Shown here: in pieces, positions 23,429 through 64,000 of the stretch
Position numbering within the stretch: the stretch's first letter is position 1
Layout: each line of letters begins with the position of its first letter
DNA from: Anaerolineae bacterium
GTDB taxonomy: Bacteria > Chloroflexota > Anaerolineae > Aggregatilineales > Aggregatilineaceae
DNA: 64,000 nucleotides
Assembly: GCA_018432315.1 (NCBI GenBank)
Contig: JAHDLB010000023.1
Location: 1 to 64,000, forward strand
Reading direction: 5' to 3'
The notes under the pieces: model-generated
Told to the model about the DNA's origin: nothing
The model's input: only the letters and a program-made list of their open reading frames with translations
The model's database searches: none
Position numbers and translations under genes: made by a program

Positions 23429-23432
23429 GCGA

Positions 23433-29640: not shown

Positions 29641-29708
29641 CTGATACTCCTTCCAATCGACTGAATTCGGTTCGTTGGCCTGAGCCACTTTGAGGATCGC
29701 CGCGCGAG

Positions 29709-29931: not shown

Positions 29932-30717
29932 TCACCGTCCCGGCTGCCACACGCACTCGGTCGCCATGGTGATGGTCACGAACCCGAAGCGCTCCAGGAT
30001 GGGGCGGCTCATCGGGCTGGCATCCACGACCAGGAACCGCCGCCCCCGCGCCTGGGCCTCTTCGGCCCGCGCGGCTAGCAGCCCGGTGTAGAAGCCCCGC
30101 TTGCGATAGCCGGGCAGCGTCGTGCCGCCCCACAGGCCCGCGAACTGGCTGCCGGGCGTGTACTGGACCCAGGCGACGCTCACCAGCTCCCCATCCGCGA
30201 AGGCGGCGTACAGGCTGAGAACGTCGGCGTTCTCTCGCATTTGGGCGGCGAGTTCCTCGCCCAGCGGCGCGAAATCTTCCTCCCAGACCTGCGTCAGCAC
30301 CGCCATGAGCGCGGGGATCTCGCCGGGATCGGTGACGCGCCGGATCGCCTCCGGGATGGGCAGCTTCAGCGCGTCGGGCAGCGCGTGCATGTCCAGGACC
30401 ATGATCGCGTCGGCTGGCTCTCGGACCTCGAAGCCACGCGCCGCCAGCCGGTCCTTGAGGTCGGCGGGTTGGTCGTGGCTGTACACTTTCCACTCGAACT
30501 CGCGTCCTGTGCTCTTGATCCACGCGAGCTGCTCGTCGATGGCCGCGTCAGCCGTGTCTTCGGTCAGGCGGGACCACAGAATCCAGCCCTGCTGCCGGCC
30601 CGTGGTCTGGACGTGCCGCACGATGATCCCATCGACGACGTCGCGGCGCGTGTCGGGGTAGGTGACGTCGAAGCGTTGGTCCTGGTCGTAGGTGGCGCGA
30701 AGTTCTTCCACGTTCAT
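29932..30717 (-). CDS. GNAT-family N-acetyltransferase
   Basis: 261 residues containing two GNAT-like halves. The C-terminal half has the acetyl-CoA pyrophosphate loop in LPGYRKRGFYTGLLAARAEEA, preceded by the SVAWVQYTPG strand and followed by LVVDASPMSRPILERFGF. The ATG at 30717 has GAGGAA just upstream; a longer frame to 30837 gives an untypical basic N-terminus. The gene is monocistronic and divergent from the DinB-like gene. The acceptor substrate cannot be predicted. Confidence 0.85.
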   Translation of the reverse strand: MNVEELRATYDQDQRFDVTYPDTRRDVVDGIIVRHVQTTGRQQGWILWSRLTEDTADAAIDEQLAWIKSTGREFEWKVYSHDQPADLKDRLAARGFEVREPADAIMVLDMHALPDALKLPIPEAIRRVTDPGEIPALMAVLTQVWEEDFAPLGEELAAQMRENADVLSLYAAFADGELVSVAWVQYTPGSQFAGLWGGTTLPGYRKRGFYTGLLAARAEEAQARGRRFLVVDASPMSRPILERFGFVTITMATECVWQPGR

Positions 30718-30889
30718 GGGGTTCCTCGTCGTGACGCTGCATGGCCGAAGTGAAGCGAGGGCGAATGATAGCGTATCTGGCCGGCGTGGGCGATTTCTCG
30801 TGCGAATGCGTTCTGTGGGCAGGTCGAACGTCTTCACGATACATTCTGAGAGCGCTGCAACACATTCCAGTTTGACGGGAGACGGATCG

Positions 30890-31579
30890 ATGACACATGC
30901 GGCAAATCCAATCGAGGTCTACGTGGAGATGGGGCAGAAGCGGGCGTTCGCCGTTGCCCTGGATTGGCCGGGCTGGGCACGCAGCGGGCGCGACGAAACG
31001 TCCGCCCTGCAAACGCTCGTCGATTATGGGCCGCGCTACGAGCGGGTTCTGCAACAGGCGCTGCCTGAATTTCGGGCGCCGTCGGCGGTAGCGGACCTGG
31101 TCGTCGTCGAGCGGCAGCCGGGCACCGCCACCACCGATTTCGGCGCGCCCGACCTCGCCCTTGCGCGTGACGAAGTCCCGGTCGAGCCGGGCGAGCTGGA
31201 ACGGTGGCGGACCATCTTGCGGGCCTGCTGGGACGCGTTCGACCGGGCGGCGGGGGCGGCGCAGGGCAAGACTCTCAGCAAGGGCCCGCGTGGCGGCGGG
31301 CGCGATCTGCCGAAGATGATCGAGCACGTGCGCGACGTCGATCTCAGCTATCTGCGCACACTCGGCGGGACGGCGAACATCGACAAGGCCGCCAATCCCC
31401 TGCACGTGCTGCCGAAGGTGCGCGAAACGATCCTGGAGACACTCACCAGGGCGGTGAACGGCGAGATCGAGCCCTACGGGCCACGCGGCGGCAAGCGCTG
31501 GACGCCGCGCTATTTCGTCCGGCGTCTGGCCTGGCACGAGCTCGATCACGCCTGGGAGATCGAGGACCGGGTCCAGTAG
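30890..31579 (+). CDS. DinB-like protein with HicB-like N-terminus
   Basis: 229 residues. The first 45 residues (VYVEMGQKRAFAVALDWPGWARSGRDETSALQTL, in part) resemble the HicB-type fold used in toxin-antitoxin partners. The C-terminal two-thirds is helical and ends RRLAWHELDHAWEIEDR, a DinB/YfiT-like pattern whose His residues often bind a metal. GGGAG precedes the ATG at 30890. It is convergent with the asparagine synthase gene, with only 5 bp between stops. No partner toxin gene is adjacent, so a toxin-antitoxin role is unlikely. The function is unknown. Confidence 0.7.
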   Translation: MTHAANPIEVYVEMGQKRAFAVALDWPGWARSGRDETSALQTLVDYGPRYERVLQQALPEFRAPSAVADLVVVERQPGTATTDFGAPDLALARDEVPVEPGELERWRTILRACWDAFDRAAGAAQGKTLSKGPRGGGRDLPKMIEHVRDVDLSYLRTLGGTANIDKAANPLHVLPKVRETILETLTRAVNGEIEPYGPRGGKRWTPRYFVRRLAWHELDHAWEIEDRVQ

Positions 31580-31584
31580 GCGGG

Positions 31585-33072
31585 TCAATCCATCCAGCGC
31601 CGGATCAAGGCGGCGACCTGCGGATCGAAGTGCTCGCGGAAGAGGCGGTAGTAGTACAGCTCCTCTTTGCCCGAAAGCCGGCGCCCGGTTTCGGCCTCGA
31701 ACTGCCGCTTCTCGCGGGCGTAGTCCGCATCGCCGATCGCGTCTTCCGCGACCTCGACCAGCGCGTCCGCCGACCCGGCCCCGATGGCAAACTGGGACTT
31801 CTTGCGCCAGATCACCTCGTCGGGCAGCATGCCTTCGAACGCTTTGCGCAGCGCCCACTTTTCGACCTCGCTGTCCTGTTGCAGCCGCTGCGAGAGATCG
31901 ACCGCGGCGGCCACTTCGATGAACTCGGTGTCCAGGAACGGGACGCGCCCCTCCAGGCTGTGCGCCATCGTCATGCGGTCCAGCCGCTGCAGGTTGCAGT
32001 CGTGCAGGCCGTCGGTGATGCGCACCAGCTCGCTCTGCAGGGCGGCGGGGTTGTCGTAGTCTTTCAGGTAGTGATAGCCGCTCATCAGCTCGTCGGCGCC
32101 CTCGCCGGAGAGCACGACCGTCACGTACTCGCTGGCGAGCTTTGCCAGGAAGAAGTTCGGAATGGCGGAGCGAATGATGGCCGGATCGTACGATTCGAGG
32201 TGATAGATCACGGTCGGCAGGATGTCGATCATCTCGTCGACCGTGTAGATGGTTTCGTGGTGCTCGGTGCCCAGGTAGTCGGCCACGAGGCGGGCGTAAT
32301 GCCGGTCTTCGCTGGTGCCTTCGATGCCCACGTTGAAGGAATGCAGGTGGTCCATTTCCTGGGCCACGATGGCCGCTACGAGGCTGCTGTCCAGCCCGCC
32401 GCTCAGAAAGACGCCCAGCGGGACGTCCGACATCAGGCGCTTGCGGACCGCTTCGGTCAGCGCCTCGCGAATCTGGTTGAGGGACGGGGACGGGCGGTGC
32501 AGCGCTTCGGTGATGACCGAGGCGACGCTGTAGTAAGGCTGGAACCCGTGCGCCGTGTGGTACCAGTGGCCGTGGGGAAACTCGCGCACCCGGTCCACCC
32601 GGCCCTGGAGCGCTTTGATCTCCGAAGCAAACTGCAAATGACCGTCGCGCCAGCCATAGTACAGGGGCTTGATCCCCAGCGGATCGCGGGCCATGTACAG
32701 CCCGGTGCCATCCCACAGCGCAAACGCAAACATGCCGTCCAGGTGCCGGGCGGCCTCCACGCCATAGCGCTGGTACAGGGGCAGGATGATCTCGTTGTCA
32801 GAGGCGGTCTGGTAGTCGTAATCGGTGAACTGCTGGCGGAGCGTCTCGTGGTTGTAGATTTCGCCGTTGCACACCAGCCACGAGCCGTCCGTTGCGTTGG
32901 CGAGCGGCTGTTCGCCCCCCTCCACATCGACGATTGCCAGCCGCACGTGCCCGAACGTCCCGGCATCGAACTGCACCACCGCCTGCCCGTCGGGGCCGCG
33001 ATGGCGCATCCGTGTTAGGTGTGGGTCCAGGTCCTCCCCGGTTTCTCCGAATATGCCCGCAATGCCGCACAT
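31585..33072 (-). CDS. asnB: Asparagine synthase (glutamine-hydrolysing)
   Basis: 495 residues, a compact class-II glutamine amidotransferase plus synthetase. Cys2 (MCGIAGIFG) is the glutaminase nucleophile, and RHRGPDG and NGEIYNH are the glutamine-binding motifs. The synthetase domain has the ATP pyrophosphate loop SGGLDSSLVAA and the SGEGADELMSGY motif, so both half-sites look intact. It makes asparagine from aspartate, glutamine and ATP, or amidates a related carboxylate. It is shorter than E. coli AsnB (about 554), with a reduced C-terminus. The 170-bp leader shows no convincing T-box. Confidence 0.93.
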   Translation of the reverse strand: MCGIAGIFGETGEDLDPHLTRMRHRGPDGQAVVQFDAGTFGHVRLAIVDVEGGEQPLANATDGSWLVCNGEIYNHETLRQQFTDYDYQTASDNEIILPLYQRYGVEAARHLDGMFAFALWDGTGLYMARDPLGIKPLYYGWRDGHLQFASEIKALQGRVDRVREFPHGHWYHTAHGFQPYYSVASVITEALHRPSPSLNQIREALTEAVRKRLMSDVPLGVFLSGGLDSSLVAAIVAQEMDHLHSFNVGIEGTSEDRHYARLVADYLGTEHHETIYTVDEMIDILPTVIYHLESYDPAIIRSAIPNFFLAKLASEYVTVVLSGEGADELMSGYHYLKDYDNPAALQSELVRITDGLHDCNLQRLDRMTMAHSLEGRVPFLDTEFIEVAAAVDLSQRLQQDSEVEKWALRKAFEGMLPDEVIWRKKSQFAIGAGSADALVEVAEDAIGDADYAREKRQFEAETGRRLSGKEELYYYRLFREHFDPQVAALIRRWMD

Positions 33073-33117
33073 GCTTTACTTCCCTTCTCGATAGGTAACA
33101 CTGCCGCCAGACACGAT

Positions 33118-33143
33118 AAGACCCTGCCGCAAACCAGGGTCTT
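33118..33143 (-). terminator. Perfect stem-loop, probable terminator of TPR gene
   Basis: AAGACCCTG (33118-33126) pairs perfectly with CAGGGTCTT (33135-33143) across an 8-nt loop. It lies 100 bp downstream of the TPR gene stop on the minus strand and 45 bp upstream of the asparagine synthase start. The U-tract is poor, so it could instead be a leader structure of the synthase message. Confidence 0.45.
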
Positions 33144-33242
33144 CGAGCGGTGTCCGGACTCTACGAGCCTAACAAAAAGCCGGTGAGGCGGCAAGCCGGG
33201 CGGCGCACAAGTCCTCGCGGTTCGCCTGAGTAGTCGACAGGG

Positions 33243-34520
33243 TCAGTACACGTCGATGATGTCGGGCGGCACGGTGGGGGACGCTTCGGGCGTGGGGATG
33301 TCGGCCAGGTCGAACTCGTCTTCGTATGCGGCACAGCTTGCCATCCCTGCGAGGATGGCGCGCCGTTCGTTTGCGTCAGGATTCATCGCCAGGGCATCGG
33401 TGAACAGCGTCCACGCCGTCGCACAGTCTCCCAGATAGACCAGCGCCAGCCCGCGAATGTAAGCGCATTCCACGTCACGCGCGCCGGGTGCGATTCCCTG
33501 CGCGCTCTCCAACTTCGCGCAGGTTGCCAGCGATTCAACGGCGCCTTCGAAGTTGCGGCGCTTGTACTGAATTTCGCCCAACTGCTGGTAGGCGTCGATG
33601 TAGTCCGGTTCCAGCAGGATTGCCTGTTCGCACGCCTCCTGGGCGCGAGTCCATTCGCCCAGCGTGTACTGCGTCTCGCACAGGCGGGTATACGCTTTGG
33701 CGCTGTCCGGTTTCAACGCCAGCACCCGGTAATAGACCGCGACCGCGGCCTCGTAGTTCAGCTGGGCTTTGTAGGATACGGCCAGCTCGAAGTAAAGCGC
33801 ATCCAGGCGGGGATGAAGCTGAAGCGCCGTTTCATATTGCTGGATGGCCGCATCAACTGCGCCCTGTGACTGCAAGGCCAGCGCCAGCGCGCGCCGTGCA
33901 TCCACCGACTCGGGATTAAGTGTTACGGCGCGCTGCGCCGCGTCGAGCATGAAACTCGGCCCCTGCGCTTGCAGGTAGGCCAGCGCGAGATACGCGTACG
34001 CCTCGGCAAAATCCGGCGCGATCTCGACGGCGCGCAGTCCTGCCCCAATAGCCTCGTGAGGGCGATTGGCCTCGACCAACGCCCAACAGAGCAGCGCCTG
34101 CGAGCGCGCGTCGTCTGGCGCCTGCTCGACCATTTCTTCAGCGACAGCGAGCGCGTCCCCAGCATACGATGCGGACGAACGCCCGGCATAACTCTGATAG
34201 ATCAGGTTGCGCCCATACTCGAAGGCAATGCCGATATGGCCCGGTTCCAATTGGTGCGCCTGGCCGTAAAGGTCGATTGCGCCAGCCAGATCGCCGTTCA
34301 TATAAGCGCGTTCGCCTTGGGCGGCGAGCGTGGTGGCATGGGGGGTAGGGGGCGGCGCACCCTGAAGCTGGGACAATACCCAGGATTGCGCGCTGTCGAA
34401 GCGCAGCACAATCGCCAGGGCAGCGCCCACTACGACCATCCAGGCAACGAACCACACAAGTTGTCCGCGACGCGCGTGGCGTCCAAACCGCAGATGCGGT
34501 CGATCTCGTTGGATACGCAT
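33243..34520 (-). CDS. Membrane-anchored TPR-repeat protein
   Basis: 425 residues. A basic N-terminus and one membrane helix (LVWFVAWMVVVGAALAIVL, about 24-42) are followed by about eight to ten tetratricopeptide repeats with recurring pairs such as GDLAGAIDLYGQAHQLEPGH and GAVDAAIQQYETALQLHP. The tail is Pro- and Asp-rich (IPTPEASPTVPPDI). The ATG at 34520 is preferred; a longer frame to 34748 runs through a repeat-like hairpin and has no membrane logic. TPR arrays mediate protein-protein contacts at the membrane. No partner is evident from the neighbours. Confidence 0.85.
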   Translation of the reverse strand: MRIQRDRPHLRFGRHARRGQLVWFVAWMVVVGAALAIVLRFDSAQSWVLSQLQGAPPPTPHATTLAAQGERAYMNGDLAGAIDLYGQAHQLEPGHIGIAFEYGRNLIYQSYAGRSSASYAGDALAVAEEMVEQAPDDARSQALLCWALVEANRPHEAIGAGLRAVEIAPDFAEAYAYLALAYLQAQGPSFMLDAAQRAVTLNPESVDARRALALALQSQGAVDAAIQQYETALQLHPRLDALYFELAVSYKAQLNYEAAVAVYYRVLALKPDSAKAYTRLCETQYTLGEWTRAQEACEQAILLEPDYIDAYQQLGEIQYKRRNFEGAVESLATCAKLESAQGIAPGARDVECAYIRGLALVYLGDCATAWTLFTDALAMNPDANERRAILAGMASCAAYEDEFDLADIPTPEASPTVPPDIIDVY

Positions 34521-34597
34521 TGTTTTTAAAGGCCATTCGAGAAGTGCTCTTATTCTCGCTGGCAGAGCACTCAATGGGACGAACCACCTCTTTTTCA

Positions 34598-34621
34598 CCC
34601 TTCCCCCTCGTTGGGGAAGGG
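34598..34621. repeat. Repeat-like intergenic hairpin
   Basis: Perfect 9-bp stem CCCTTCCCC (34598-34606)/GGGGAAGGG (34613-34621) with a 6-nt loop. A second short palindrome (GGACCCGAAGGGTTC, 34627-34641) and a G-rich stretch ending near 34654 follow. The arrangement resembles short dispersed intergenic elements. Only one copy is in this window, so repeat status is a guess. Confidence 0.4.
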
Positions 34622-35021
34622 AAGCGGACCCGAAGGGTTCGCGGGGATGGGGGTTCTCAAACGGTCTCTTAGAACACGCCGCCGTCTTCCAACTGACTCG
34701 TGTCTCTTCGAGCAAGACCGGGCACAGTGCCCACCATGAGTCTACCACATGCCGATAGCGAGACGCTTGAGAGTGGCGAAGTCATGAAGCTCAACGGCTG
34801 TACGGTGTCGCGAGTGGGCTTTGCCTCAAGATGGCGGCTTGCAGTTCGTTGCGCATTGCGCGGCGGCAGGCAGTGCTCGGGCGTACAATCAACGCTTCAC
34901 GCCAGCGGAGCGAGAGGTCGGGCGGCGCTGTCGGGCACGCGGTGAATGCGGCGCGCTGCGGTCGGCGTGTCCGGCGAAGCGCGATTCCTGTTCCTCCCCC
35001 GCGGTATAACACGCCACACAA

Positions 35022-35054
35022 CCCTGCATGGTTAACCACACATGCGGGGTTTTT
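35022..35054 (+). terminator. Orphan intrinsic terminator
   Basis: CCCTGCATG (35022-35030) pairs with CATGCGGGG (35041-35049; one mismatch) and is followed directly by TTTTT. No plus-strand gene ends upstream. It may close a short untranslated transcript or terminate stray transcription before the promoter at 35067. Confidence 0.55.
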
Positions 35055-35066
35055 CACGCGGAGTAC

Positions 35067-35095
35067 TTGCGTAACGGGCCCGGAAACAGCATAAT
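35067..35095 (+). promoter_or_regulatory. Promoter of peptide-importer operon
   Basis: TTGCGT (35067-35072), a 17-bp spacer and CATAAT (35090-35095), five of six bases of the -10 consensus. Transcription from about 35102 gives a leader of about 119 nt containing a GCTGGC/GCCAGC hairpin near 35150-35170. Confidence 0.65.
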
Positions 35096-35220
35096 TAAGT
35101 GGATCTCGTTATCAGCTTCTCCGAAAAATCGGGGAGGGAGATCGATCGTGCTGGCTGCTTGGAGGCCAGCCCCGCTGTAAGACTTGTTCGGTGAATTCGC
35201 GACTGAATGCGGAGGGAGCA

Positions 35221-36795
35221 ATGCGACGTTTCATAACGGTGTTATTCGTCCTGAGTTTGATCGTCATGGTTTTCGGGACAGTTACTGCCCAAGACGATGA
35301 AAAGGTTTTAGTGGTTGGCCTCTCAGAAGATTACCATTCACTCGATCCCAACCGCGCCTATGAACCCGGTGGCTCGCAGGTGCACCACTCGGTATACGAC
35401 ACGCTCGTCACCTTCCCGTCCGATTCCGTAGACGAGATCCTGCCGAACCTGGCCGCCGATTGGGATATCTCGGAAGATGGCCTGGTGTACACGTTCTACC
35501 TGCGGGATGACGTCGTTTTCTCCAATGGGGATCCGCTGACCGCCGACGATGTCGTGTTTAGCTTCAACCGCATGAAGAACCTCAAGGATAACCCCGCGTT
35601 CCTGGCCGATACGATTGCCAGTGTCGAAGCCGCTGACGATCTGACGGTGGTTCTGACGCTCGAACACCCCGATCCGGCGATCCTTGCCAAGCTGATCTTC
35701 GACGCGTTCTCGGTGGTCAACGCGGACGTGGTCCGCGAACATGGCGGCACCGATGCCGAAGACGCGGCTGAGACGGACACCGCGGAAGACTGGCTGATGA
35801 ACAACTCGGCTGGCACCGGCCCCTACATGGTCGAGAGCTACGAGCCCACCGTGCAAACCGTCCTGGTGCGGAATCCGAATTACTGGGGCGAGCCGGCTTA
35901 CTTCGATCGCATCATCATTCAGAACCTGCCGGAAACCTCGACCCAGAAGCTGATCCTCGAAGCGGGCGACATCGACATCGCGATGGACGTCATCGCGGAT
36001 CAACTGCCTTCCCTGCGGCAGAATGACGCCATCGAAGTCTTCTCCACCCAGAGTGACACGCTGATCTTCTTGCTGTGCAACCAGGATCCTGAGATCGGTG
36101 GTCCGATGAGCGATCCGCTCGTCCAACGGGCGCTGCGGTACGCGGTGAACTACGAAGAACTGAAGTTCCTCAGCGGCGAGGGTGCCGACAACCCCGCCGC
36201 GATGGTCCCGATCGGCTTTGCGGGCGCGCTGGACCCGTCCGAAGGGCTGACGCGTGACCTGGATCAAGCGCGGGCGCTGCTCGCCGAGGCGGGCTATGCG
36301 GACGGATTCACGATCGACCTCGAGTATCCGGACTTCAACTACATTGGCACGGAGTTCGGCATCGTCGCCCAGAAGGTTCAGGCTGACCTCGCGGAAGTCG
36401 GGATCACGGTCAACCTCGTGCCCCAGGAATTCCAGGTTTCGCTGGAAGCGTACCGCGCGGGCCGGCAGGGGTTCAGCCTGTGGCTGTGGAACCCGGATTA
36501 CTACGACACGCTGGACTACGTGGAGTTCTTGCCCAATGGTGTGGTGGGTAACCGGGCCAACTGGACCGACGAGAACGCCGACCAGGAGATTCTCGACCTG
36601 CGCGACGCCGTCATCGTCGAAACGGATTCGGCCACCCGCAACGAGCTGTTCCGCCAGATTCAGTTGTACGAGCAGCAGAACGGGCCGTTCGTGCCGCTCT
36701 TCCAGCCGGGCGTCCACTTTGCCTATGATGCCAATCTGCAAGGATTCGCCTACAATGGGCAGTGGCGTGTAGACCTGACAAGACTGCACTACTGA
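35221..36795 (+). CDS. Peptide/nickel-type ABC substrate-binding protein (family 5)
   Basis: 524 residues. The Sec signal peptide (MRRFITVLFVLSLIVMVFGTVTAQ) has no lipobox cysteine. The mature domain has the family-5 landmarks SLDPNRAYEPG, LYTFYLRDDVVFSNGDPLTADDVVFSFNR (in part) and the late PFVPLFQPG. The ATG at 35221 has GGAGGGAG just upstream; an earlier start at 35191 would disrupt the signal peptide. It leads an operon with two DppB/DppC-type permeases. The ligand is probably a peptide or opine-like molecule, though glycosides are also bound by this family. No ATPase genes follow. Confidence 0.92.
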   Translation: MRRFITVLFVLSLIVMVFGTVTAQDDEKVLVVGLSEDYHSLDPNRAYEPGGSQVHHSVYDTLVTFPSDSVDEILPNLAADWDISEDGLVYTFYLRDDVVFSNGDPLTADDVVFSFNRMKNLKDNPAFLADTIASVEAADDLTVVLTLEHPDPAILAKLIFDAFSVVNADVVREHGGTDAEDAAETDTAEDWLMNNSAGTGPYMVESYEPTVQTVLVRNPNYWGEPAYFDRIIIQNLPETSTQKLILEAGDIDIAMDVIADQLPSLRQNDAIEVFSTQSDTLIFLLCNQDPEIGGPMSDPLVQRALRYAVNYEELKFLSGEGADNPAAMVPIGFAGALDPSEGLTRDLDQARALLAEAGYADGFTIDLEYPDFNYIGTEFGIVAQKVQADLAEVGITVNLVPQEFQVSLEAYRAGRQGFSLWLWNPDYYDTLDYVEFLPNGVVGNRANWTDENADQEILDLRDAVIVETDSATRNELFRQIQLYEQQNGPFVPLFQPGVHFAYDANLQGFAYNGQWRVDLTRLHY

Positions 36796-36872
36796 GTTCT
36801 GTCGCCAGGGTGCGGCGGCGGGATCTGGGTGATAGATCTCGCCGCCTTTTTTCATCACCTTGAGGCAAGATT

Positions 36873-37892
36873 ATGTCGCTTCATGTTTATCTGATGCGCC
36901 GTCTGGTGTTGATGATCCCGCTGCTCGTCGGCATTTCGATCGTGTCCTTCACCATCTCGAATGCCATCCCTGCCGATCCGACCGCCGCCAACCTCGGCGA
37001 GCGGGCCGCGGCGGATCCTGACATCGTAGCGGCATTTCGCCACAAATGGGGCCTGGACCAACCACTCCACGTGCAATACCTGACGTACATGCGCAATTTG
37101 CTGCGCGGCGATATGGGAACCTCGATTCGCAGCCACCGCCCCGTGGTTGAGGAATTGCGCCGGTATCTTCCCGCTACCATCGAGCTTGCTACAGCCGGCA
37201 TCCTTGTGAGCGTGATCGCGGGCGTGATCTTCGGCGTCGTATCGGCGGTGTGGCGCAACAAGCCGATTGATTTCGTGGTCCGCATCCTGTCCCTGATCGG
37301 GGTCAGCGCGCCGGTCTTCTGGCTCGCCTTGATCGGGTTGTTGGTGCTCTATCTGCGCTGGGACGTGGTTCCCGGTCCTGGCCGGTTGGATGCCAGGGTC
37401 GTTCCCCCCGCGCGCGTCACCGGGTTGTACACGGTCGATAGCCTGGTGGCCGGCGACCTGGGCCTTTTCCGCAATTCGATCGAGCATCTCTTGCTGCCCG
37501 CGCTGGTCCTGGGCGCGTATTCGGCGGGGCTGATCACACGCATTACCCGCTCGTCGATGTTGGAAGTCCTCTCGCAAGACTACATCACGACGGCGCGCAG
37601 TAAGGGATTGCGCGAATGGGTGGTGGTTATGCGGCATGCGCTGCGGAACGCGTTGATGCCGGTCGTGACGATCATCGGCCTGTCATACAGCAGTCTTCTG
37701 TCCGGAGCGGTGCTCACCGAGACAATCTTTGCCTGGGAGGGCATTGGACGCTACGCCTATAACGCAGCACGGACGCTCGACTTTCCCGCCATTATGGGAG
37801 TGAGTATGTTGATCGCGTTGGTATTCGTTGTGACAAACCTGGTTGTAGACATCCTGTATTATTGGCTGGATCCACGACTCCGGCATGGATGA
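36873..37892 (+). CDS. DppB/OppB-type ABC permease
   Basis: 339 residues. The N-terminal helix (RRLVLMIPLLVGISIVSFTI) and the extracytoplasmic segment with HKWGLDQPLHVQYLTYMRNLLRGDMGTS (in part) are hallmarks of OppB/DppB/GsiC subunits. The ATPase-contact loop is DYITTARSKGLREWVVVMRHALRNAL. GAGG lies upstream of the ATG. Its TGA overlaps the ATG of the next permease (ATGA), indicating coupled synthesis of the pore subunits. It follows the binding protein by 77 bp. Confidence 0.93.
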   Translation: MSLHVYLMRRLVLMIPLLVGISIVSFTISNAIPADPTAANLGERAAADPDIVAAFRHKWGLDQPLHVQYLTYMRNLLRGDMGTSIRSHRPVVEELRRYLPATIELATAGILVSVIAGVIFGVVSAVWRNKPIDFVVRILSLIGVSAPVFWLALIGLLVLYLRWDVVPGPGRLDARVVPPARVTGLYTVDSLVAGDLGLFRNSIEHLLLPALVLGAYSAGLITRITRSSMLEVLSQDYITTARSKGLREWVVVMRHALRNALMPVVTIIGLSYSSLLSGAVLTETIFAWEGIGRYAYNAARTLDFPAIMGVSMLIALVFVVTNLVVDILYYWLDPRLRHG

Positions 37893-38743
37893 GCGCCATG
37901 GATAATCTACACACCGTTCGGTTGCGAATGCGCCAGAATCCGCTGATGGTCGTGGGAGCCATCGTCTGCCTCGTCTGGATCGTCATTTCGATGGCCGCGG
38001 GGGATCTCGCGCCCTACCATCCGCTTGAACAAAGCGTGATGGAACGCCTCCAGGCCCCAAGCAGCGACCATCTCTTCGGCACCGACCAGCTTGGGCGTGA
38101 TGTGCTGTCGCGCGTTCTTTACGGCGGGCGTACGTCCTTGCCTGCCGGTTTGCTGGTGGTGACGAGCGCGATGCTTGTCGGGACGGCCTTTGGCGCCGTC
38201 GCCGGTTATATGGGCGGCATGTGGGACGAACTGCTGATGCGTTTTACCGAAGTGTTTATGGCGTTCCCGATCATCATTCTGGCGATGGCGATTGCAGCGG
38301 CGCTGGGGCCCAACGTGACGAATGCCGTGATCGCGATGAGCGTGGTGTGGTGGCCGAACTATGCCCGCATCGTCCGCAGCCTGGTCATCAGCGTGAAATC
38401 CGATGCCTACGTCGAATCGGCGCGCGCGATAGGGTCGTCGCCGGTTCGCATACTGCTGATCACCATTCTGCCCAACTGCGTCGCCCCCGCGCTGGTGATG
38501 GCGACCCTGGATATCGGGAATGCGATCCTCATTTTCGCGGGGCTGAGCTTCCTGGGGTTGGGTCCCGAGCCATCCTCGCCAGAGTGGGGACGCATGGTGT
38601 CCGACGGCATCGACTATTTCGATCAGTGGTGGCTCAGCACTTTTCCCGGCCTGGCGATCTTCACGGTGGTGATGGCCCTCAATTTCGTCGGCGACGGGAT
38701 GCGCGATCTGCTCGATCCACGGACGCGCAAGCAGATTGGTTGA
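37889..38743 (+). CDS. DppC/OppC-type ABC permease
   Basis: 284 residues. The N-terminal QNPLMVVGAIVCLVWIVIS helix and the segment HLFGTDQLGRDVLSRVLYGGRTSL (in part) are diagnostic of DppC/OppC. The contact loop is SDAYVESARAIGSSPVRILLITILPN. The start codon overlaps the stop of the DppB-type gene by 4 bp; a second ATG at 37898 is possible. The gene ends the operon, 62 bp from the convergent patatin gene. The two DppD/DppF ATPase genes normally found next are missing. Confidence 0.93.
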   Translation: MSAMDNLHTVRLRMRQNPLMVVGAIVCLVWIVISMAAGDLAPYHPLEQSVMERLQAPSSDHLFGTDQLGRDVLSRVLYGGRTSLPAGLLVVTSAMLVGTAFGAVAGYMGGMWDELLMRFTEVFMAFPIIILAMAIAAALGPNVTNAVIAMSVVWWPNYARIVRSLVISVKSDAYVESARAIGSSPVRILLITILPNCVAPALVMATLDIGNAILIFAGLSFLGLGPEPSSPEWGRMVSDGIDYFDQWWLSTFPGLAIFTVVMALNFVGDGMRDLLDPRTRKQIG

Positions 38744-56048: not shown

Positions 56049-56906
56049 CTAGCTTGGCAACTCGCAGTTCAGCCGGGCGAGAGCGGCCTGCCATTCCTCT
56101 TCGCTGGTGGCTTTGCGGGCGCGGAAGTTGATCCCCATCGTGCCGAAACTCGCCGCGCTGCTTTCCTGGGGAGCCCCGCCGAACACGTCGGCCCGCCAGG
56201 TGATCTCGAAGTCGACGAAACCGGCCATCACCACGGCCATCTCCAACTCTGCTTCCAGCAGAGCGCCGGCAATTCAACCGGTCCACAGGTCGATGTTGCG
56301 TTTGGCTCCCGCTGGCACGGGTTTCTCGACCAGGATGTCGGCGATCTGCAGCCGTCCGCCCGGCTTGAGCACGCGGGCCATTTCGCCCAGCGCGGCGTGC
56401 TTGTCCGGCATCAGGTTGAGCACGCCGTTGGAGATGACCAGGTCCGCCCAGCCGTCGAACACGGGCAGCGCCTCGCCAAAACCTTCGCGGTACTCGACGT
56501 TACGCAGCCCCGTGTCGCGGGCGGCCTTCCGCGCTTTGGCGAGCATGGCCGGCGTCATGTCCACGCCCACCACGTGCCCCTCCGGCCCGACCATTTTGGC
56601 GGCGACCAGACTGTCCATGCCGGCGCCGCAGCCCACGTCCACGACCCGGTCGCCGGGCCCTGGCTGCTCCATGCTGAACGGGTTTCCCGTCCCGGCGAAC
56701 GAAGCGATGGCGGCTTCCGAAATGCCTTCCAGCCAGGCATCGTCGTACCCCAGCATGCGGGTCAGCGGGCGCCCGGTGTGGAAGTGAAAGCCGTGGTCCG
56801 GATTCTCGGCCACCACCTGGTACTCGGTCTGGATTGCCTGTCGCAGGCTGTCGAGATCGAGATCGGGGACGGATGGGCCTGTGGGAGAGTGTGTGTCCAT
56901 CGTCAT
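56049..56906 (-). CDS. ArsM-like SAM methyltransferase, candidate selenoprotein (Sec211)
   Basis: 285 residues if the in-frame TGA at 56276-56274 is read as selenocysteine. Motif I (VVDVGCGAGMD, about 88-98), VGVDMTPAMLAKARKAA and VISNGVLNLMPDKHAALGEMARVLKPGG (in part) identify a class-I methyltransferase close to arsenite methyltransferases. After the TGA the same frame continues 74 residues with family sequence (IAGALLEAELEMAVVMAGFVDFEITWRADVF, in part). The TGA sits in W-T-G-TGA-I-A-G-A-L, the position of the catalytic Cys in ArsM/AS3MT (C-x-G-A-L context). The first ArsM cysteine (GCGNP) is Thr here (AGTGNP). A SECIS-like hairpin follows the TGA. AGGA lies 9 nt before the ATG. It lies 116 bp downstream of the OsmC gene. 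Confidence 0.82.
56246..56264 (-). promoter_or_regulatory. Candidate bacterial SECIS element (methyltransferase)
   Basis: Minus strand: stem CTCTGC (56263-56258)/GCAGAG (56252-56247), extended by a G-T pair, with the 5-nt loop TGGAA. Sixteen bases separate the TGA from the loop, and G is the second loop base. These features fit published bacterial SECIS models (loop 16-37 nt after UGA, G among the first two loop bases). The loop start and size equal those of the element in the divergent regulator gene. Confidence 0.7.
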
Positions 56907-56965
56907 TTTTGCACATCCTTCTCGTTCAGGCGCAGTCTGTTCTGACTGGCGCGGAATGGGGAGGG

Positions 56966-56991
56966 GGAGGAAGACCTGCGGGCCTTCCTCC
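56966..56991 (-). other. Stem-loop between OsmC and methyltransferase genes
   Basis: GGAGGAAG (56966-56973) pairs perfectly with CTTCCTCC (56984-56991) across a 10-nt loop, with no T-tract. It lies in the 116-bp gap between the two genes and may set their relative expression or act as a processing site. Confidence 0.55.
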
Positions 56992-57022
56992 ATTGGCGTT
57001 ATGTCCGGTAAGCCGAACGCCT

Positions 57023-57592
57023 TCAGTCTGCGAGCGCGACGCTCACCGGGACCGGGTTGCGGAGCATGTCCAGCACGGGCGACGTGCGCTGGACGTAATC
57101 GCACAGCGCCTCGATCTTCTCGCGCGGGGCGTCGCTCTTGACCCGGTAGGTGAGGCGGATGTTCTCGAACCCCGGTCGCACGTCCTCGGATAGGCCGAGG
57201 AACGCCTGCAGGTCCAGATCGCCCTCCAGGTCGAAGTTCAGACTCTCGACGGTGATCCCCTGCGCAGCCGCGTTGTAGACGAAGCCGACCGCCAGGCACG
57301 ACGCGAGCGCGTGCAGGATGGCTTCGACGGCGTTCGGGCCGGCGTTGCCGCCGAGCAGCACCGGGGGCTCGTCGCCTTCGAGGACGAACGGCTGGCTGCG
57401 GGACTCGTCTTCCTGGCCCGCGCCGTAGAACCCCTGGATGGTCGTGCGCGAATGCCCGCCATCGATCCATTCGTTCTGGGCGCGGAACTGGAACCGCGCG
57501 ATCTCCGGTTTTTCCTGGATGGCCTGGACCGTTGCAACGAGCTGATCGACGTTGACGCCGTTGACGCGGGTGGTGACTTGTGTGTTCATCAT
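57023..57592 (-). CDS. OsmC/Ohr-family protein
   Basis: 190 residues. The conserved OsmC segment is present: GGNAGPNAVEAILHALASCLAVGFVYNAAAQGI (in part), with the C-terminal partner region RSPVLDMLRNPVPV-like (RTSPVLDMLRNPVPVSVAL). Cys in ALASCLAV corresponds to the resolving or peroxidatic cysteine of this fold; an N-terminal extension of about 35 residues precedes the core. AAGGAG lies 5 nt before the ATG at 57592 (ATG at 57589 also possible). It is first in an operon with the methyltransferase and divergent from the SARP-type regulator. It probably reduces organic hydroperoxides or handles a reactive thiol or metalloid product. Confidence 0.87.
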   Translation of the reverse strand: MMNTQVTTRVNGVNVDQLVATVQAIQEKPEIARFQFRAQNEWIDGGHSRTTIQGFYGAGQEDESRSQPFVLEGDEPPVLLGGNAGPNAVEAILHALASCLAVGFVYNAAAQGITVESLNFDLEGDLDLQAFLGLSEDVRPGFENIRLTYRVKSDAPREKIEALCDYVQRTSPVLDMLRNPVPVSVALAD

Positions 57593-57689
57593 TTGTTCTC
57601 CTTGTGATTTTTTCACGTCCATGTGAGTCCCACTTTACCGGCCTGCCGTGCCGGATGCGTGACAAAACGCGTCCCACGAGCGTGATTTT

Positions 57690-57730
57690 TGATGATAAAT
57701 AGGTTTTTATGTTAAAAATAAGTGTATAAT
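57690..57730. promoter_or_regulatory. AT-rich divergent promoter region
   Basis: A markedly AT-rich 41-bp stretch in GC-rich surroundings. A perfect TATAAT (57725-57730, plus strand, preceded by TG) would start transcription near 57737, just before the regulator ATG at 57743. On the minus strand TATCAT (about 57699-57694) could serve the OsmC-methyltransferase operon. This shared region is the natural site of control by the SARP-type protein. Confidence 0.5.
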
Positions 57731-57742
57731 CGAGAGACAGTC

Positions 57743-60700
57743 ATGCAGAGTAGCAGCAGGGAGGTGAAAACCAGGCCATTGACTTCACTAAAGCTCATAT
57801 TGTTCGGCCCTCCCCGCGTGGAGCGCGAGGGCCAACCGGTAGATGTGACTCGTCGTAAAGCCCTGGCTTTGCTGTCGTACCTGGCCGCAACCGGGCAACC
57901 CCACAGCCGCGATACGCTCGCCACCCTTTTCTGGCCCGATGTCCCTCAACGTCAGGCTCGGGGCAATCTGCGCCGGGCCCTGTCCGATCTGAATGCCGAG
58001 ATCGGTGATGATGTCCTGCTGCTGGACGGCGAAACCGTCGCGCTAAACGTCGACGGCGTTGAGTCGGACGTGGCGCGGTTTCGGGCGTGTCTGGCGGCGT
58101 GTTCGGCACACGACCACCGGCCCGACGACGTCTGCCCGAATTGCGTCCCCTTGCTGGCCGAGGCCGCCGACCTGTATCAGGCGGACTTCCTGGCCGGTTT
58201 CACCTTGCGCGACACAGTCGAGTTCGACGATTGGCAGTATTTCGAAGCCGAAGGGCTGCGCCAGGATCTCGCGTCTGCGCTGGCTCGCCTGGTGGAAGGG
58301 CTGGTCGTCCGGGCCGATTACGAGGCGGCCATTTCCTATGCGCGCCGCTGGGTCGCGCTCGATCGCCTGCACGAACCGGCTCACCAGCAGCTCATGCGCC
58401 TGTACGCCCAGCTTGGGCGCCGCCACGATGCGCTGCGCCAGTACCGCGCCTGCGCTGAAACGCTGGATTCCGAGTTGGGCATCTCCCCTTCGCCCGAAAC
58501 CGAGATGCTCTACCAGCGAATCGCGGGCGGCGACGTATCCCTGCCGGCTGCGGCGAGTCCCAAGCCGGCCTGGCTGCCCCCGGCGCTCACCGCCGTCGCG
58601 GTGAAGCACGGCGCGCCCCTGGCTGGCCGGGACGCGGAGCTGGAACAGATTCGCGCCAAAATCGATGCAAGCTGGCATGGCGGGGGGCAGACCCTGCTGC
58701 TGGCCGGCGTATCCGGGGTGGGCAAGACGCGGGTGGCCTACGAAGCCCTGCAGAGCGCGGCGCAGTCCGGCATCACGACGCTGCTAGGCGCAGCCTACGA
58801 ACAGGAAGGGCACCTGGCGTACCATCCCTTCATCGAGGCGATTGACCGCTATCTCACCGACCAACAGCGCCCCCTGGAGCAGAACCCCATCACCTATTAC
58901 AAACCGTTGGGCGCCACCGATCCACAGCAGGAACACACGGCCCTGTTCAAGGCTACAGCCATGTTCTTTGCAGCCCTCGCCGAAAACAACCCGGTGCTGC
59001 TCATGCTGGATGACCTCCACGACGCGGACGAAGCCAGCCTGAGCATGTTCCATTATCTGGCGCGACAGACGCGCTCGTTTCCTATCATCCTGCTGGCGAC
59101 CTACTCCACCGACATTCCCATCAGCGGCGTCTCGCCATTTGGCAGCCTGCTCAACGCGCTGTACCGCGAGCAGTTGAGCGAGGCCATCGACCTGTCGCCG
59201 CTGTCGGAAGATGCCGCCGCCGAGATCGTCAATCACGCGCTGGCGGGGCGGGCCGATCCGCACCTGGTCAAAACGATCTACGACGCTGCCGAAGGGAATC
59301 CGTTCTACGTGCAGGAAATCAGCCGGGCGATGTCCAAGGATGAACACCTGGTTCGGGCGGGCGATGGCTTGCGGCTGCGTCCCGAGGCGGCTGTCCCCAT
59401 CCCCACCGGGCTACAGGATCTGCTGCGCGAGCGGGTGCAGCGGCTGGGCAAAGATGTCGAGTCCGCTCTCAGCGCGGCGGCGGTGGTGGGGCGCGAATTT
59501 CGCTTTGCGGTCCTCAAACACGTCACCGATCTGCCCGACGGCGAACTGTTCGATGCGCTCGACACAGCCCTGTCGGCCCATCTACTCCAGGAAACGGATA
59601 CCGGGTACCGCTTCCAGCATGCCCTGATTCGTCACGCGCTCTACGAGGCGCTGAGCCGCCGCCGCCGGGCGTGGCTGCATGGGCGCGCCGCCGGGGCAAT
59701 CGAGGCCCTCTATGCCGGACAGGCGGGCGGGCTGCAGCCCCATGTCGATGCGCTGGCCCACCACTATGACCTCAGCGATCAGCGCGACAAGGCTTTGCCG
59801 TACCTGGTCCAGGCCGCCGACAAAGCAGCCGGGCTCTTCGCCCTGGAGATCGCGTCCGATTACCTGGAGCGGGCGATTGGCCTGATGGACGAACTGGGCA
59901 TCGAAGATCCGGCGGCCCGGTGGCCCCTGCTCGAGAAGTTGGGCACCTGGGCCAAGGTGTTGGCGGATACCAGCCGCGCCGTGTCGAGTTACCAGCAGGC
60001 GCTGGCTCTGCCCGCCACCGGCGATTGGCAGCCCAGTCCTGGCGACCGGGTACGGCTGCACCGCTCGGCTGCCCGATCGCTCATTGCCACCGGTCGCATG
60101 GCCGAGGCGGAGCAGAATTTGCAGGCAGCCATCGAGCTTGTCGCGGATGTGGATCAGGCGTCGCTGGATTACGCTAATATCCTGTACGATGTGGCGCTGT
60201 GGCACTGGCATAACGACGCCTACCAGGAGGCGTATACCGCCGCTCAGCGCAGCCTGGAGATCGCCGAGAAGATCGATGACACGACTGCAAGGGCCCAGGC
60301 TTACGAGATGCTGGCGCTGGCCTGTCACTCGCTGGGCGAGTGGCAGGAGGGACTCAGCTTCGAGCAGCAGCGCTCGTTGTTGATCGGCCCCAACCTCGAC
60401 GTGACGGAGGCGTTCGACGCGCACCTTTGACTGTGGGAATATCACCTGTACGGTGATAAGGAATACGATGAATTCAGGGGCATCATCGACACGACCCTGC
60501 ATCAGGCCCGGCGCATGGGCGCGCCCCGCGCGATAGCCCTGTGCCAGAGTTTCAACGGCGCGCTCGAATTTCAGGTGGGGCATTGGGCCGAGGCTGAGCA
60601 GTCTCTCGACGAATCGATCCGCCTGTTTCAGGAGATCGGCGCGGCAGATGGCGAGGCGCTGTCCTACCAGCGGCTGGGCATCCTTCTGACCGCGCAGGGC

Positions 60701-61180
60701 CAGTTGGCGCAAGGTCTCTCGGCCCTCGAACAGGGGATCGTGGCGGCCAAACATGCCAAGCTGCGGGCGCACCTGCAGGGGCGTCTGTACGCCGCCATCG
60801 CCCGCAACCGCCTGTTGGCCGGGGACGTGCCAGCGGCGGACGACGCGCTCTCGCTGGGGGAGGCGCTGACCGAAAGCCACGGTCACTGTGCGCTGTGTGA
60901 AGCCCTGCTGCTGCCGGTCGCCGTCAGTGTGCGAATCGCCCAGGGGGACCTGGCTTCGGCAGCCGAATACTGCCACCGGCTCGATGAGGCGGCAGCGCGT
61001 TATGGCAGTGACGCGTGGATGGCGCTCGCTGCTCAAGCGCACGGGGAACTGGCTGCAGCCCAGGAAGATGCAGACGCGGCTGTTGCGCATTACGCGGTGG
61101 CCCGCACGTACTTCGAGCAGGCGAAGAACGAGGTCGCCGCCGGGCAGTGCGCCGACGCGCTCGCCCAGCTTCAGGCGTGA
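57743..61180 (+). CDS. SARP-BTAD/AAA/TPR regulator, candidate selenoprotein (Sec896)
   Basis: 1145 residues when the in-frame TGA at 60428-60430 is read through. An OmpR-like winged helix (about 15-95, KLILFGPPRVEREG) leads into a BTAD helical domain (about 95-260). The AAA ATPase has Walker A GVSGVGKT (about 322-329) and Walker B VLLMLDDLHDADE (about 418-430). A long TPR-like C-terminus follows. Four cysteines in C-x3-C and C-x2-C (about residues 116-134) form a possible metal or metalloid site. The frame continues 250 residues past the TGA with uninterrupted TPR sequence (LWEYHLYGDKEYDEF). A perfect 7-bp SECIS-like hairpin follows the TGA. It is divergent from the OsmC-methyltransferase operon, which it probably activates. 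A GTG at 57722 and a TTG at 57779 are alternative starts. Confidence 0.82.
60440..60458 (+). promoter_or_regulatory. Candidate bacterial SECIS element (regulator)
   Basis: TATCACC (60440-60446) pairs perfectly with GGTGATA (60452-60458) around the 5-nt loop TGTAC. The loop begins 17 nt after the TGA (60428-60430) and has G as its second base. Stem length, loop size, loop start and the leading T-G are the same as in the methyltransferase element, although the stem sequences differ. Confidence 0.7.
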
Positions 61181-61274: not shown

Positions 61275-62168
61275 TCACTCGCCTTCCACGTCGGTGAGCG
61301 CTTCGAACCCGGAGGCAATGTCCAGCAGTTCTTCGGTGATCGAGCTCTGGCGCAGGTGGTGGTACCGGGTGGTGATCTCCCGCAGGCGATCTTCGATGTT
61401 CTGCTCGGCGGCCTGCATGGTTGCCAGGCGCGTGGTGTTCTCGCTGGTCAGCGACTCGACAAACGCGCGGTAGAGCAGGACGAAGAAGTACTGGTGCAAG
61501 AGCGCCGAAAACAACTGGCCCCGGTCCATGGTGAACATCGGCAGCACGCGCGAGTCCCATGCGGTGGTTTGCAGGTCGCGCAGCCAGTCCAGGTCCACGG
61601 GCAGCAGCCAGCGCATCCGGGTATGGAAGGCGGTGCCTGAGGTGGGGGTGTTGAAGAACAGCACGATCCGTTGAACGTCGTGCTGCTCGCGCCACTCCTC
61701 GACTTTTAGCAGCACGTCGATCACGCTCGACGTCACGCCCGCCAGCGAGCTGGGCGACGCGATGGCCTTTTCCACCGGGTGCCCGGCGACATCCATGTGG
61801 GCGGCGGTGCGCAGCCCGATCACCAGGACGTGGCGCTGGTCAGGCGGTGCGGCGAGTTTGTCCATGCCGCGGAGCGCGTACGACACGACCCGGTTGCTGA
61901 ACTGCCCGGCCAGTCCCTGATTGGCGCCGATGACGATCGCGCCCAACGCGCTGCCGGGCCCTGTCTCCATTCCGGGGATGGAACGCGCCTCGCTTTGCAG
62001 GACGATCTGCAGCCCCATTTCGATCGTCCGGTAGTACTCGACGAGCGATTCGAGCGCTTCCCGGTAGTGGCGGACGTTGACCGCCGCGAGCACCTTCATC
62101 GTGCGGGCGATCGAATAGAGATCTTCGGCGCTCTCCATTTTGCCGCGCAGAGACTCAAGCGTCTCCAT
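61275..62168 (-). CDS. atpG: N-type ATPase gamma subunit
   Basis: 297 residues. The N-terminal coiled-coil helix ([31 protein letters not shown]) and the C-terminal helix ([42 protein letters not shown], in part) pack in the alpha-beta ring of F1. The central Rossmann-like region is divergent from standard AtpG, as in the alternative N-ATPases. GGAGG lies 6 nt before the ATG at 62168; the ATG at 62174 overlaps that site. It overlaps the alpha gene by 14 bp and appears to be the last gene of the operon. Confidence 0.9.
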
Positions 62169-63699
62169 GCTCATCCTCCGCCAGGGGGGCGATGGCTTCC
62201 TCGATCGTGCCGAGCAGCGCCTCCCGATCGGCCTCGCTCAGTGGCTTTCGCTTGTGGATTCTCTCGTAGAGGTCGGGCTGTTTTCTGGCGGCAGCGGCAC
62301 GGATCGCTCGTTCTGCTTCGGCGATCCGGTCCGGGGGCAGAATGTCCAGGGCGCCTTCGGTCACAGCCAGCAGCACGGCGATCTGGTCGGCGGCGGACAG
62401 CGGGGCATATTGGGTTTGCTTCAGCGTTTCGCGGACGCGCCGCCCGCGCTCGATCGTCTGGCGTGTCTCTTTGTCGAGCTGTGTGCCAAAGCGCGCGAAG
62501 GCTTCTAACTCCTCGAACTGGGTGTAGGACAGGCGCAGGTCGCCGGCCACCGCCCGGAACGCCGGGAGCTGGGCTTTGCCGCCCACGCGCGACACCGACC
62601 GGCCAATGTCCACGGCGGGCAGCACGCCGCGTTGGAACAGCGTCGGCGAGAGGTAGATCTGGCCGTCGGTGATCGAGATCAGGTTGGTTGGAATGTACGC
62701 GGAGATGTTCTGCGCCTCGGTTTCGACGATCGGCAGCGCCGTCATCGAGCCGCCGCCCAGGTCCGGGTGCAGGTGCGTTGCGCGCTCGAGCAGGCGCGAA
62801 TGGATGTAGAAGATGTCGCCCGGAAACGCTTCGCGGCCCGGCGGACGGCGCAGCAGCAGCGACAGCTCGCGATAGGCCCGCGCGTGGTGCGTCAGGTCAT
62901 CGTAGATAATCAACACGTCGCGTCCCTGTTCCATGAAGTACTCGCCGATCGAAGTCGCGGCATACGGCGCGTTATATTGCAGGCCGGGCGCGTCCTGCCC
63001 GGTCGCCAGCACGACGATCGTGTAATCCATCGCGCCGTGTTCCTGCAGATCGCTGATCACCTTCGCCACCGACGCATTGCGCTGTCCAATGGCACAGTAG
63101 ATGCAGATCACGTCTTTGTCGCGCTGGTTGATGATCGTGTCCAGCGCGATCGCGGTCTTGCCGGTCTGGCGGTCGCCGACGATCAGCTCGCGCTGCCCGC
63201 GCCCGATCGGGAACAACGCGTCGATCACTTTGATCCCGGTTTGCAGCGGCATGGTCACCGGCGCGCGGTCCATGATGGCCGGGGCGTCCCGCTCGATGGG
63301 CAGGCGATCGGCTGTTCCCAGCAGCTCGCGCCCATCCAGGGGGCGGCCCAACGCGTCGATCACCCGGCCCAACAGGGCCTCGCCGACCGGAATGTCGGCC
63401 ACCCGCCCGGTGCGATAGGCTTCCATGCCGGCGTACAGCCCCTGGTTGCTGTCCAGCAGGACGACGCCCACTTGGCCCGGGTCGAGGTTGAACGCCATGC
63501 CCAGCCGCCCATCGGCAAACTCGATCAGCTCCTGGGACTGCGTGCCGGGGAGCCCCTGGACGTGTACCGTGCTGCTACCCACGCTGACCAGCGTGCCAAT
63601 CTCGTCGACGCGCAGCGCTACATCGTGGCTTTCCAGCACGTGATCCAGCGTCGAGAGCACGTCGCCTACCACGGCGGTGAGTTCTGGCCTGTCGCTCAT
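62155..63699 (-). CDS. atpA: N-type ATPase alpha subunit
   Basis: 514 residues, full length for F1 alpha. Walker A is [15 protein letters not shown], Walker B is [10 protein letters not shown], and [33 protein letters not shown] (in part) matches alpha. The catalytic arginine region [15 protein letters not shown] is present. The order b - alpha - gamma, without a separate delta gene between b and alpha and with no beta or epsilon after gamma, is that of N-ATPase operons (atpDCQRBEFAG). These enzymes typically pump Na+ or H+ by ATP hydrolysis. The ATG overlaps the b-subunit stop (ATGA). Confidence 0.95.
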
Positions 63700-64000
63700 T
63701 GGGCGCTTGCCTCCGCAGCGTCTGGCTGCGCCGCTTCTTCGGGCGGGCCAGCGGGGTCTGCGATGGTGGGCATGTCGCCTGCCAGCGCCTCGACAACGCG
63801 CTCCTCCAGCAGGTTCAGGTAGTCTCGCAGGTTCCAACCAAGCTGGTAGTCACCCGTTTTCAGCAGGATCCCGCTGATCAGGTCCGCGTTCACGTCGAAC
63901 CGCAGCGCCACGTGATTCCCAACCTGCTGCTGCAGGATATCGGCCAGGCGCTCGCGCGTTTCATCGGACAGTTCGAACGCGCTGTGAATCACCATCTCGC
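63696..64000 (-). CDS. atpF: N-type ATPase b subunit (with delta-like C-terminus), partial
   Basis: The gene extends beyond the right edge; about 101 C-terminal residues are visible. [23 protein letters not shown] followed by [31 protein letters not shown] (in part) is the delta-like stator domain fused to b in N-ATPases. The Ala-, Pro- and Glu-rich tail ([17 protein letters not shown]) is low-complexity. The stop overlaps the alpha start by 4 bp. The membrane and coiled-coil parts lie outside the window. Confidence 0.85.

Follow-up and report, generated by a model that had tools for sequence, protein, structure and literature searches.

The 64,000-nucleotide stretch analysed here as a whole (the window) corresponds to positions 1 to 64,000 of contig JAHDLB010000023.1 from an Anaerolineae bacterium of the Chloroflexota (assembly GCA_018432315.1). 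It contains two divergent genes, each interrupted by a single in-frame UGA codon, one for a large SARP-type transcription activator and the other for an ArsM-like methyltransferase dependent on S-adenosylmethionine (SAM), with a gene for an OsmC/Ohr-like protein between them (table 1). The proposed decoding of the two UGA codons as selenocysteine (Sec), assisted by hairpins resembling the bacterial Sec insertion sequence (bSECIS), and the regulatory circuit that the three genes may form are the subject of this report. Relatives are indicated by the handles of their loci (L) and genomes (G).

Table 1. Positions of the genes, codons and sequence elements discussed in the text.
Feature	Position	Strand	Evidence
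ArsM-like SAM-dependent methyltransferase, one in-frame UGA (Sec211), stop TAG	56049..56906	-	NCBIfam models, orthologues in 18 genomes
Methyltransferase bSECIS-like hairpin	56246..56264	-	17 distinct sequences, 100% paired
Methyltransferase UGA (Sec) codon, motif LWTG-U-IAGAL, aligned with CmArsM C224	56274..56276	-	UGA in orthologues; Cys in G534
OsmC/Ohr-like protein, Cys form, no UGA; start probably ATG 57592	57023..57622	-	Pfam OsmC, 72 bits
Three heptamers, GCGTGAC-AAAA-CGCGTCC-CACGA-GCGTGAT, 11/12-bp spacing, candidate SARP operator	57657..57686	.	Divergent intergenic region
TATAAT, likely -10 box of the SARP promoter	57725..57730	+	Read from sequence; also upstream of the SARP gene in L028
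SARP-type transcription activator (DNA-binding + BTAD, AAA/NOD, TPR)	57743..61180	+	Pfam BTAD/AAA_16, AfsR structure match, TPR model
SARP UGA (Sec) codon, motif DAHL-U-LWEYHLYGD	60428..60430	+	UGA in 17 orthologues; Cys in G383 and two distant homologues
SARP bSECIS-like hairpin (stem 60440-60446/60452-60458, loop 60447-60451, TGTAC)	60440..60458	+	Minimum free energy, synonymous constraint
SARP CxxC codons, HGH-C1056-xx-C1059	60887..60898	+	Invariant in 19 homologues down to 26% identity

The architecture of the regulator is that of the large SARPs, with an OmpR-type DNA-binding domain and a BTAD domain (Pfam BTAD, 76 bits) followed by a NOD/AAA ATPase (AAA_16, 77 bits) and a TPR sensor. A match to the structure of AfsR (8hvr; query residues 12-264 on chain residues 44-289, E 5.8e-7) covers the DNA-binding domain and BTAD, and the TPR half is predicted to fold as a TPR superhelix (pLDDT, the model confidence score, 86), with TPR matches in the PDB. 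The open frame spans 57722..61180, but GTG 57722 is less favoured as the start because it overlaps the TATAAT box, and ATG 57743, GTG 57764 or TTG 57779 are likelier. Residues are numbered here from the frame start at 57722, so that the Sec residue is 903 (896 from ATG 57743); frame residues equal segment residues plus 610, the CxxC cysteines being C446 and C449 of the segment. The OsmC protein exceeds the gathering score of its Pfam family (PF02566, 27.5 bits) and scores 58 bits, below the cut-off of 95, with the NCBIfam OsmC_like_Se model (NF041052).

Selenocysteine codons in the regulator and the methyltransferase

Counting the T of the UGA as position 1, the two hairpins share the same columns, with a stem at 13-19/25-31 and a 5-nt loop at 20-24 that opens with T-G, leaving 16 nt between the UGA and the loop. 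The sequence-only reading had described one in-frame TGA in each divergent gene followed by hairpins of equal geometry, and its coordinates were right, with seven pairs in each stem. The SARP hairpin (TATCACC-TGTAC-GGTGATA) has a minimum free energy of −9.8 kcal/mol and that of the methyltransferase (GCTCTGC-TGGAA-GCAGAGT), in which one of the seven pairs is G-U, of −15.7 kcal/mol. Both satisfy the published bSECIS model; an Rfam search of the window gave no match. Among the 1669 TGA trinucleotides on both strands of the window, seven out of seven pairs at this geometry were found after only three, two of which are those of the SARP and methyltransferase genes. The third, at 38670 (+), lies out of frame in the C-terminal region of a transporter-permease-like gene and is probably due to chance. 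The earlier estimate that a perfect 7-bp stem would arise by chance with a frequency of about 4^-7 is about right for one fixed offset; the comparative data, however, are far stronger evidence for Sec.

A class search, a scan of one genome per species (84,980 species), a phylum search and the reading of individual loci led to the identification of Sec-type SARP orthologues in 17 genomes, including the present one, with 36-69% identity, all belonging to Chloroflexota where named and all with TGA at the same position. The codons forming the hairpin (TAT-CAC-CTG-TAY-GGT-GAY) are frozen in these 17 sequences, with CAC, CTG and GGT invariant, and nowhere in the gene is synonymous diversity lower than in the 10-codon window at the UGA. 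In G383 (locus L080; 55-56% identity) the UGA is replaced by TGC (Cys) and the peptide CLWEYHLYGD is unchanged, and the codons CAT-TTG-TAT-GGC carry synonymous changes that destroy the hairpin stem. The UGA form thus outnumbers the Cys form by 17 to 1 among orthologues of at least 36% identity. Cys is also present in the distant homologues G313 (locus L040) and G340, and no residue other than Sec or Cys was found at this position in any homologue read. The dN/dS values (nonsynonymous over synonymous substitution rates, unsaturated pairs) are about 0.10-0.23 after the UGA and 0.13-0.20 before it; purifying selection acts on the portion of the protein beyond the UGA just as it does on the portion ahead of it. 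Across 19 homologues, down to 26% identity, 30 columns are invariant, and they include Sec/Cys903, the Cys1056-xx-Cys1059 pair some 153 residues further on, His869, His901 and His1017.

For the methyltransferase (METHYLTRANSFERASE) the TGA is kept by orthologues of at least 56% identity in 18 genomes. Double compensatory changes are found at two pairs of the 17 distinct hairpins (one from G-C to A-U, in five hairpins, the other from C-G to U-A, in four), and there were none in slid control positions. The orthologue of G534 (60% identity) has TGC (Cys) at the Sec position. The use of UAG as a Sec codon in this protein was considered and rejected, its TAG being a normal stop. At the G534 locus (L079, 9390-12791, -) the Cys-form gene is accompanied by OsmC, a PpoB2/DUF2182-like gene and a small membrane protein also present in L032; the Sec-type SARP is absent there, and another regulator-like gene is divergent to the group.

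An origin of the two UGAs in pseudogene decay by nonsense mutation, or in errors of sequencing or assembly, has a negligible probability. Nothing speaks in its favour beyond the in-frame stops themselves. The same codon is found in 17 (SARP) and 18 (methyltransferase) independent genomes, the hairpins are conserved and purifying selection continues after the UGA, so that decay, which the sequence-only reading had already held to be unlikely, is excluded by these comparative data.

The genome (5.69 Mb, 99% complete) contains SelB (335 bits), tRNA-Sec (75 bits), SelA (545 bits, beside SelB) and SelD (364 bits), the last with a single in-frame TGA of its own, as is known for Sec-type SelD. Among genomes carrying SARP relatives, tRNA-Sec was above the cut-off in all 16 tested (strong in 15) and SelA in 14 of them; SelD was above the cut-off in 17 of 18 genomes tested, and of 20 further genomes from the SARP and methyltransferase families, Cys-form genomes included, 19 have SelA. 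Since this machinery, of which the genome has all the parts, is accompanied by Sec/Cys pairs and conserved hairpins, UGA 60428 and UGA 56276 almost certainly encode Sec under the direction of their bSECIS hairpins. Sec in both genes, as first proposed, is therefore borne out, and on the two points that had been named beforehand as decisive, every homologue read has UGA or Cys and the carriers possess Sec machinery. A genome-wide reassignment of TGA is rejected, the codon serving as an ordinary stop, for example at 61178-61180. The same use of UGA at the ends of the SARP and OsmC genes speaks against readthrough with another amino acid, or a shorter SARP ending at the UGA, although the 902-residue product would keep the SARP and NOD domains and part of the TPR domain. 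By also considering that the hairpin fits the bSECIS model and co-occurs with Sec machinery, and that homologues contain Cys, the standard replacement of Sec, a decoding without selenium is highly improbable.

Module layout and promoter motif

The association of SARP, OsmC and methyltransferase, proposed from the window alone, proved to be a real and recurrent module in the loci of relatives. OsmC adjoins the SARP gene in most of them, and the three genes follow one another in the order SARP-OsmC-methyltransferase on one strand in L030, L031, L033, L036, L037, L038, L039, L081 and L084. Partial layouts are SARP-methyltransferase in L029 and SARP-OsmC in L034, and in L032 the SARP gene is followed by genes for a membrane protein, a PpoB2/DUF2182 protein and a DUF1326 protein. 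The divergent layout of the window is the rarer arrangement. In L084 two copies of the Sec-methyltransferase gene flank the operon. At the same locus (G675, ~8900-11000, -) the C-terminal part of the SARP shifts frame after the Sec codon and is followed by an alpha/beta-hydrolase-like gene in several frames, owing to assembly indel errors or decay.

Downstream of OsmC in L030, L036 and L039, at the same operon position, another ArsM-type methyltransferase is found (EAAFAG-U-LGGAL), also with a UGA and hairpin, so that, compared with the window, two methyltransferase types are paired with the same regulator. A further Sec-type kind (NWFA-U-IAGA) is encoded on another contig of a carrier genome (L094, G593:C14, ~63.7-65.2 kb), and a weak match to the promoter motif described below lies behind it.

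A motif, GTAAGATTTTTGGGAGGTC-N7-TATNNT, precedes OsmC in nine operons, in several of which a second GGTAAG is found 11 bp upstream. On leave-one-out scoring, the site upstream of OsmC ranks first of 21,000-38,000 positions in all nine loci. Independent hits were obtained before the methyltransferase gene in L029, after the SARP gene in L032 and L084, and after the Cys-form SARP gene in L080. A whole-genome scan of 13 genomes, allowing three mismatches, returned 12 hits (0-2 per genome), 10 of them at the SARP operon, against one hit in total for the reversed motif in the same genomes. Because the motif is so rare and found mostly at the SARP operon, the SARP looks like a dedicated local activator of the adjacent operon. 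In this respect the circuit would recall PimR, whose binding site consists of three heptamers separated by 4 bp and whose only target gene is pimM (PMC5930380). The heptamers of the window are conserved in the closest relative, L028, and their only perfect match in the genome is at this site, with two weaker hits elsewhere. Candidates for the operator type of the large SARPs, heptamer direct repeats about 11 bp apart near the -35 region of the target promoter, are a conserved motif with repeats in the relatives and different repeats in the window.

Proposed mechanism and its alternatives

By taking all these observations together, the locus is probably best explained as a two-selenoprotein regulatory module. 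AfsR, the closest relative whose structure has been solved, belongs to the STAND proteins; its SARP domain activates, the NOD and TPR domains inhibit and ATP relieves the inhibition, with no inducer known (PMC10936776). The SARP of the window is very likely an AfsR-like STAND activator, with its DNA-binding and BTAD domains, NOD ATPase and TPR sensor, dedicated to the adjacent OsmC and Sec-methyltransferase genes, and the methyltransferase is very probably under its control. In the chain of events envisaged, which we consider plausible, with the balance slightly in its favour, the TPR half would act as the sensor, Sec903 and the invariant Cys1056-xx-Cys1059, with the equally invariant His869, His901 and His1017, would bind or react with a soft, thiol-reactive inducer, for which reactive species of sulfur or selenium, metalloids, heavy metals and oxidants are candidates, and autoinhibition by the NOD and TPR domains would be relieved. 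The SARP domain could then recruit RNA polymerase at the heptamer-like repeats that immediately precede the -10 box, and OsmC would reduce, and the Sec-methyltransferase methylate, the offending compound. The invariant Sec/Cys and CxxC in the putative TPR sensor are the obvious candidate site for the inducer.

With respect to the chemistry, the methyltransferase has the ArsM SAM-methyltransferase fold, as judged from sequence matches to the ArsM structures 5evj (93 bits), 4kw7 and 4fr0; an AlphaFold model (pLDDT 68) was too weak to use. A possible alternative is that arsenite is the signal, perceived by the SARP through its Sec and cysteines, and that the enzyme is a Sec-type ArsM, as suggested by the fold, by the recognition of the protein by NCBIfam ArsM selenoprotein models and by the position of Sec at the third arsenic-binding Cys, an ArsM selenoprotein being catalogued as experimentally verified (PMC13188914). 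However, of the three As(III)-binding Cys residues of CmArsM only C224 has a counterpart, Sec211, C72 and C174 being replaced by Thr73 and Gly161, both invariant among the orthologues. The scores are also below the family cut-offs (231 bits against 510 for the ArsM/AhpD selenoprotein model, 215 against 263 for PRK11873), and L032 is the only one of the loci read in which ArsR and a metal-transporting ATPase stand side by side. Arsenic detoxification is, therefore, improbable. The assignment as a bona fide arsenite methyltransferase is rejected on the two missing arsenic-binding residues, and the protein is best called ArsM-like in fold. Of the selenium-dependent redox or metalloid-methylation pathway put forward by the sequence-only reading, the Sec module stands, and arsenic methylation as such is not supported.

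Neighbouring genes give further hints on the inducer. In L080, which encodes the Cys-form SARP, genes for TusA, DsrE and a DinB-family protein lie behind the promoter motif in place of OsmC and the methyltransferase (~6300-7988, -), a hint that the process under control may involve sulfur-relay or persulfide chemistry, and rhodanese and metallo-beta-lactamase genes are found near the module in L029. These two loci lean, weakly, towards reactive sulfur or selenium species.

The switch would also depend on selenium, since a full-length SARP requires Sec insertion, and the UGA might then serve mainly as a translational sensor of selenium sufficiency that turns the selenoenzyme operon on only when Sec can be inserted. 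Reporting of selenium sufficiency by the regulator had been suggested by the sequence-only reading. At low selenium a truncated SARP of 902 residues, lacking the last 250, would be inactive or act differently, and with selenium the full activator would be made. Two Sec proteins in one local circuit, the late position of the UGA in the SARP gene and the prevalence of the UGA form over the Cys form agree with such a gate, and efficient UGA recoding in E. coli needs sufficient selenium (PMC4513850). On the other hand, the occurrence of a Cys-form SARP with the same promoter motif in a Sec-decoding genome indicates that UGA gating is not essential, and the invariance of the Sec/Cys position and of the later CxxC even in distant homologues fits chemistry better than mere gating. 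A pure selenium gate is thus unlikely. The existence of Cys versions of both proteins, together with the invariant CxxC beyond the Sec, would favour a chemical sensing role of Sec, and selenium gating may be a by-product or an added layer of it. A transcription factor with Sec as its sensing residue, whose synthesis is completed only in the presence of selenium and which thereby joins an inducer-responsive Sec/CxxC switch to a check for selenium before the Sec-methyltransferase of the operon is made, can be put forward only tentatively, and we regard it as somewhat doubtful.

Several considerations weigh against the module as proposed, with chemical sensing through Sec903. In the predicted TPR array Sec903 is about eight helices away from the CxxC, and the neighbouring genes in L080, L029 and L032 point in several directions with respect to the inducer, an ArsR gene and a metal-transporting ATPase gene being those of L032. 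The intergenic repeats of the window are unlike the motif found in the other lineages, and, with the genes laid out divergently, the operator is assigned here with uncertainty; the choice of the SARP start among GTG 57722, ATG 57743, GTG 57764 and TTG 57779 is uncertain as well.

Relation to known systems

The SARP resembles AfsR/PimR-type large SARPs in domain order, in the structural match to the DNA-binding and BTAD domains of AfsR, in candidate heptamer-like repeats upstream of the -10 box and in what looks like a single adjacent target. It differs in having Sec and an invariant CxxC in the TPR sensor and in being found in Chloroflexota beside redox and methylation genes instead of in antibiotic clusters. 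The methyltransferase shares with the ArsM-family selenoproteins (ArsM; ArsM/AhpD, NF041537; ArsM/DUF2284, NF041536; MTase/UXPK-star, NF047649) the SAM fold and the UxxG in the same place (U-I-A-G), but it stands alone, with no fused second domain, lacks two of the three arsenic-binding Cys residues and is below all curated cut-offs. The OsmC protein has the domain of the OsmC-like (seleno)proteins (NF041052, PF02566) above the Pfam cut-off, but here and in the relatives read it is the Cys form, below the cut-off of NF041052.

Lists of prokaryotic selenoprotein families comprised 87 entries in 2022 (PMC9312934) and 119 in May 2026, the latter including ArsM, OsmC-like and FmdB (PMC13188914). 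No SARP/BTAD/TPR regulator is present in either list, no SARP-type selenoprotein model emerged from NCBIfam 20.0 scans of two of the module proteins, and no Sec-containing regulator of this kind was found in the open literature searched, which is no proof of its being unseen. The catalogued proteins are enzymes, redox proteins, transporters, metal binders and proteins of unknown function, apart from FmdB, the sole 'regulatory' entry, a Sec-containing putative regulator (PMC13188914) which is a small CxxC-CxxC protein and not a SARP-type DNA-binding activator. The HrsM/LysR_Se system also links selenium with transcription regulation (PMC9312934); its regulator is a selenium-specific LysR-type protein that is not listed as a selenoprotein. 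The SARP represents a new family of selenoproteins and, within the SARP regulators, a new variant; no other DNA-binding transcription regulator appears to have been recognised as a selenoprotein before it. If the proposal is true, Sec would serve sensing in transcription control, beyond catalysis, and regulator, promoter and target with matched Sec and Cys forms would make up a compact natural system, allowing direct tests of what a sensor gains from Sec instead of Cys and of selenium-dependent control of expression. Standard annotation truncates these regulators near residue 902.

The SARP gene is immediately followed, on the other strand, by genes similar to those for the gamma and alpha subunits of ATP synthase (61275-63837, -).

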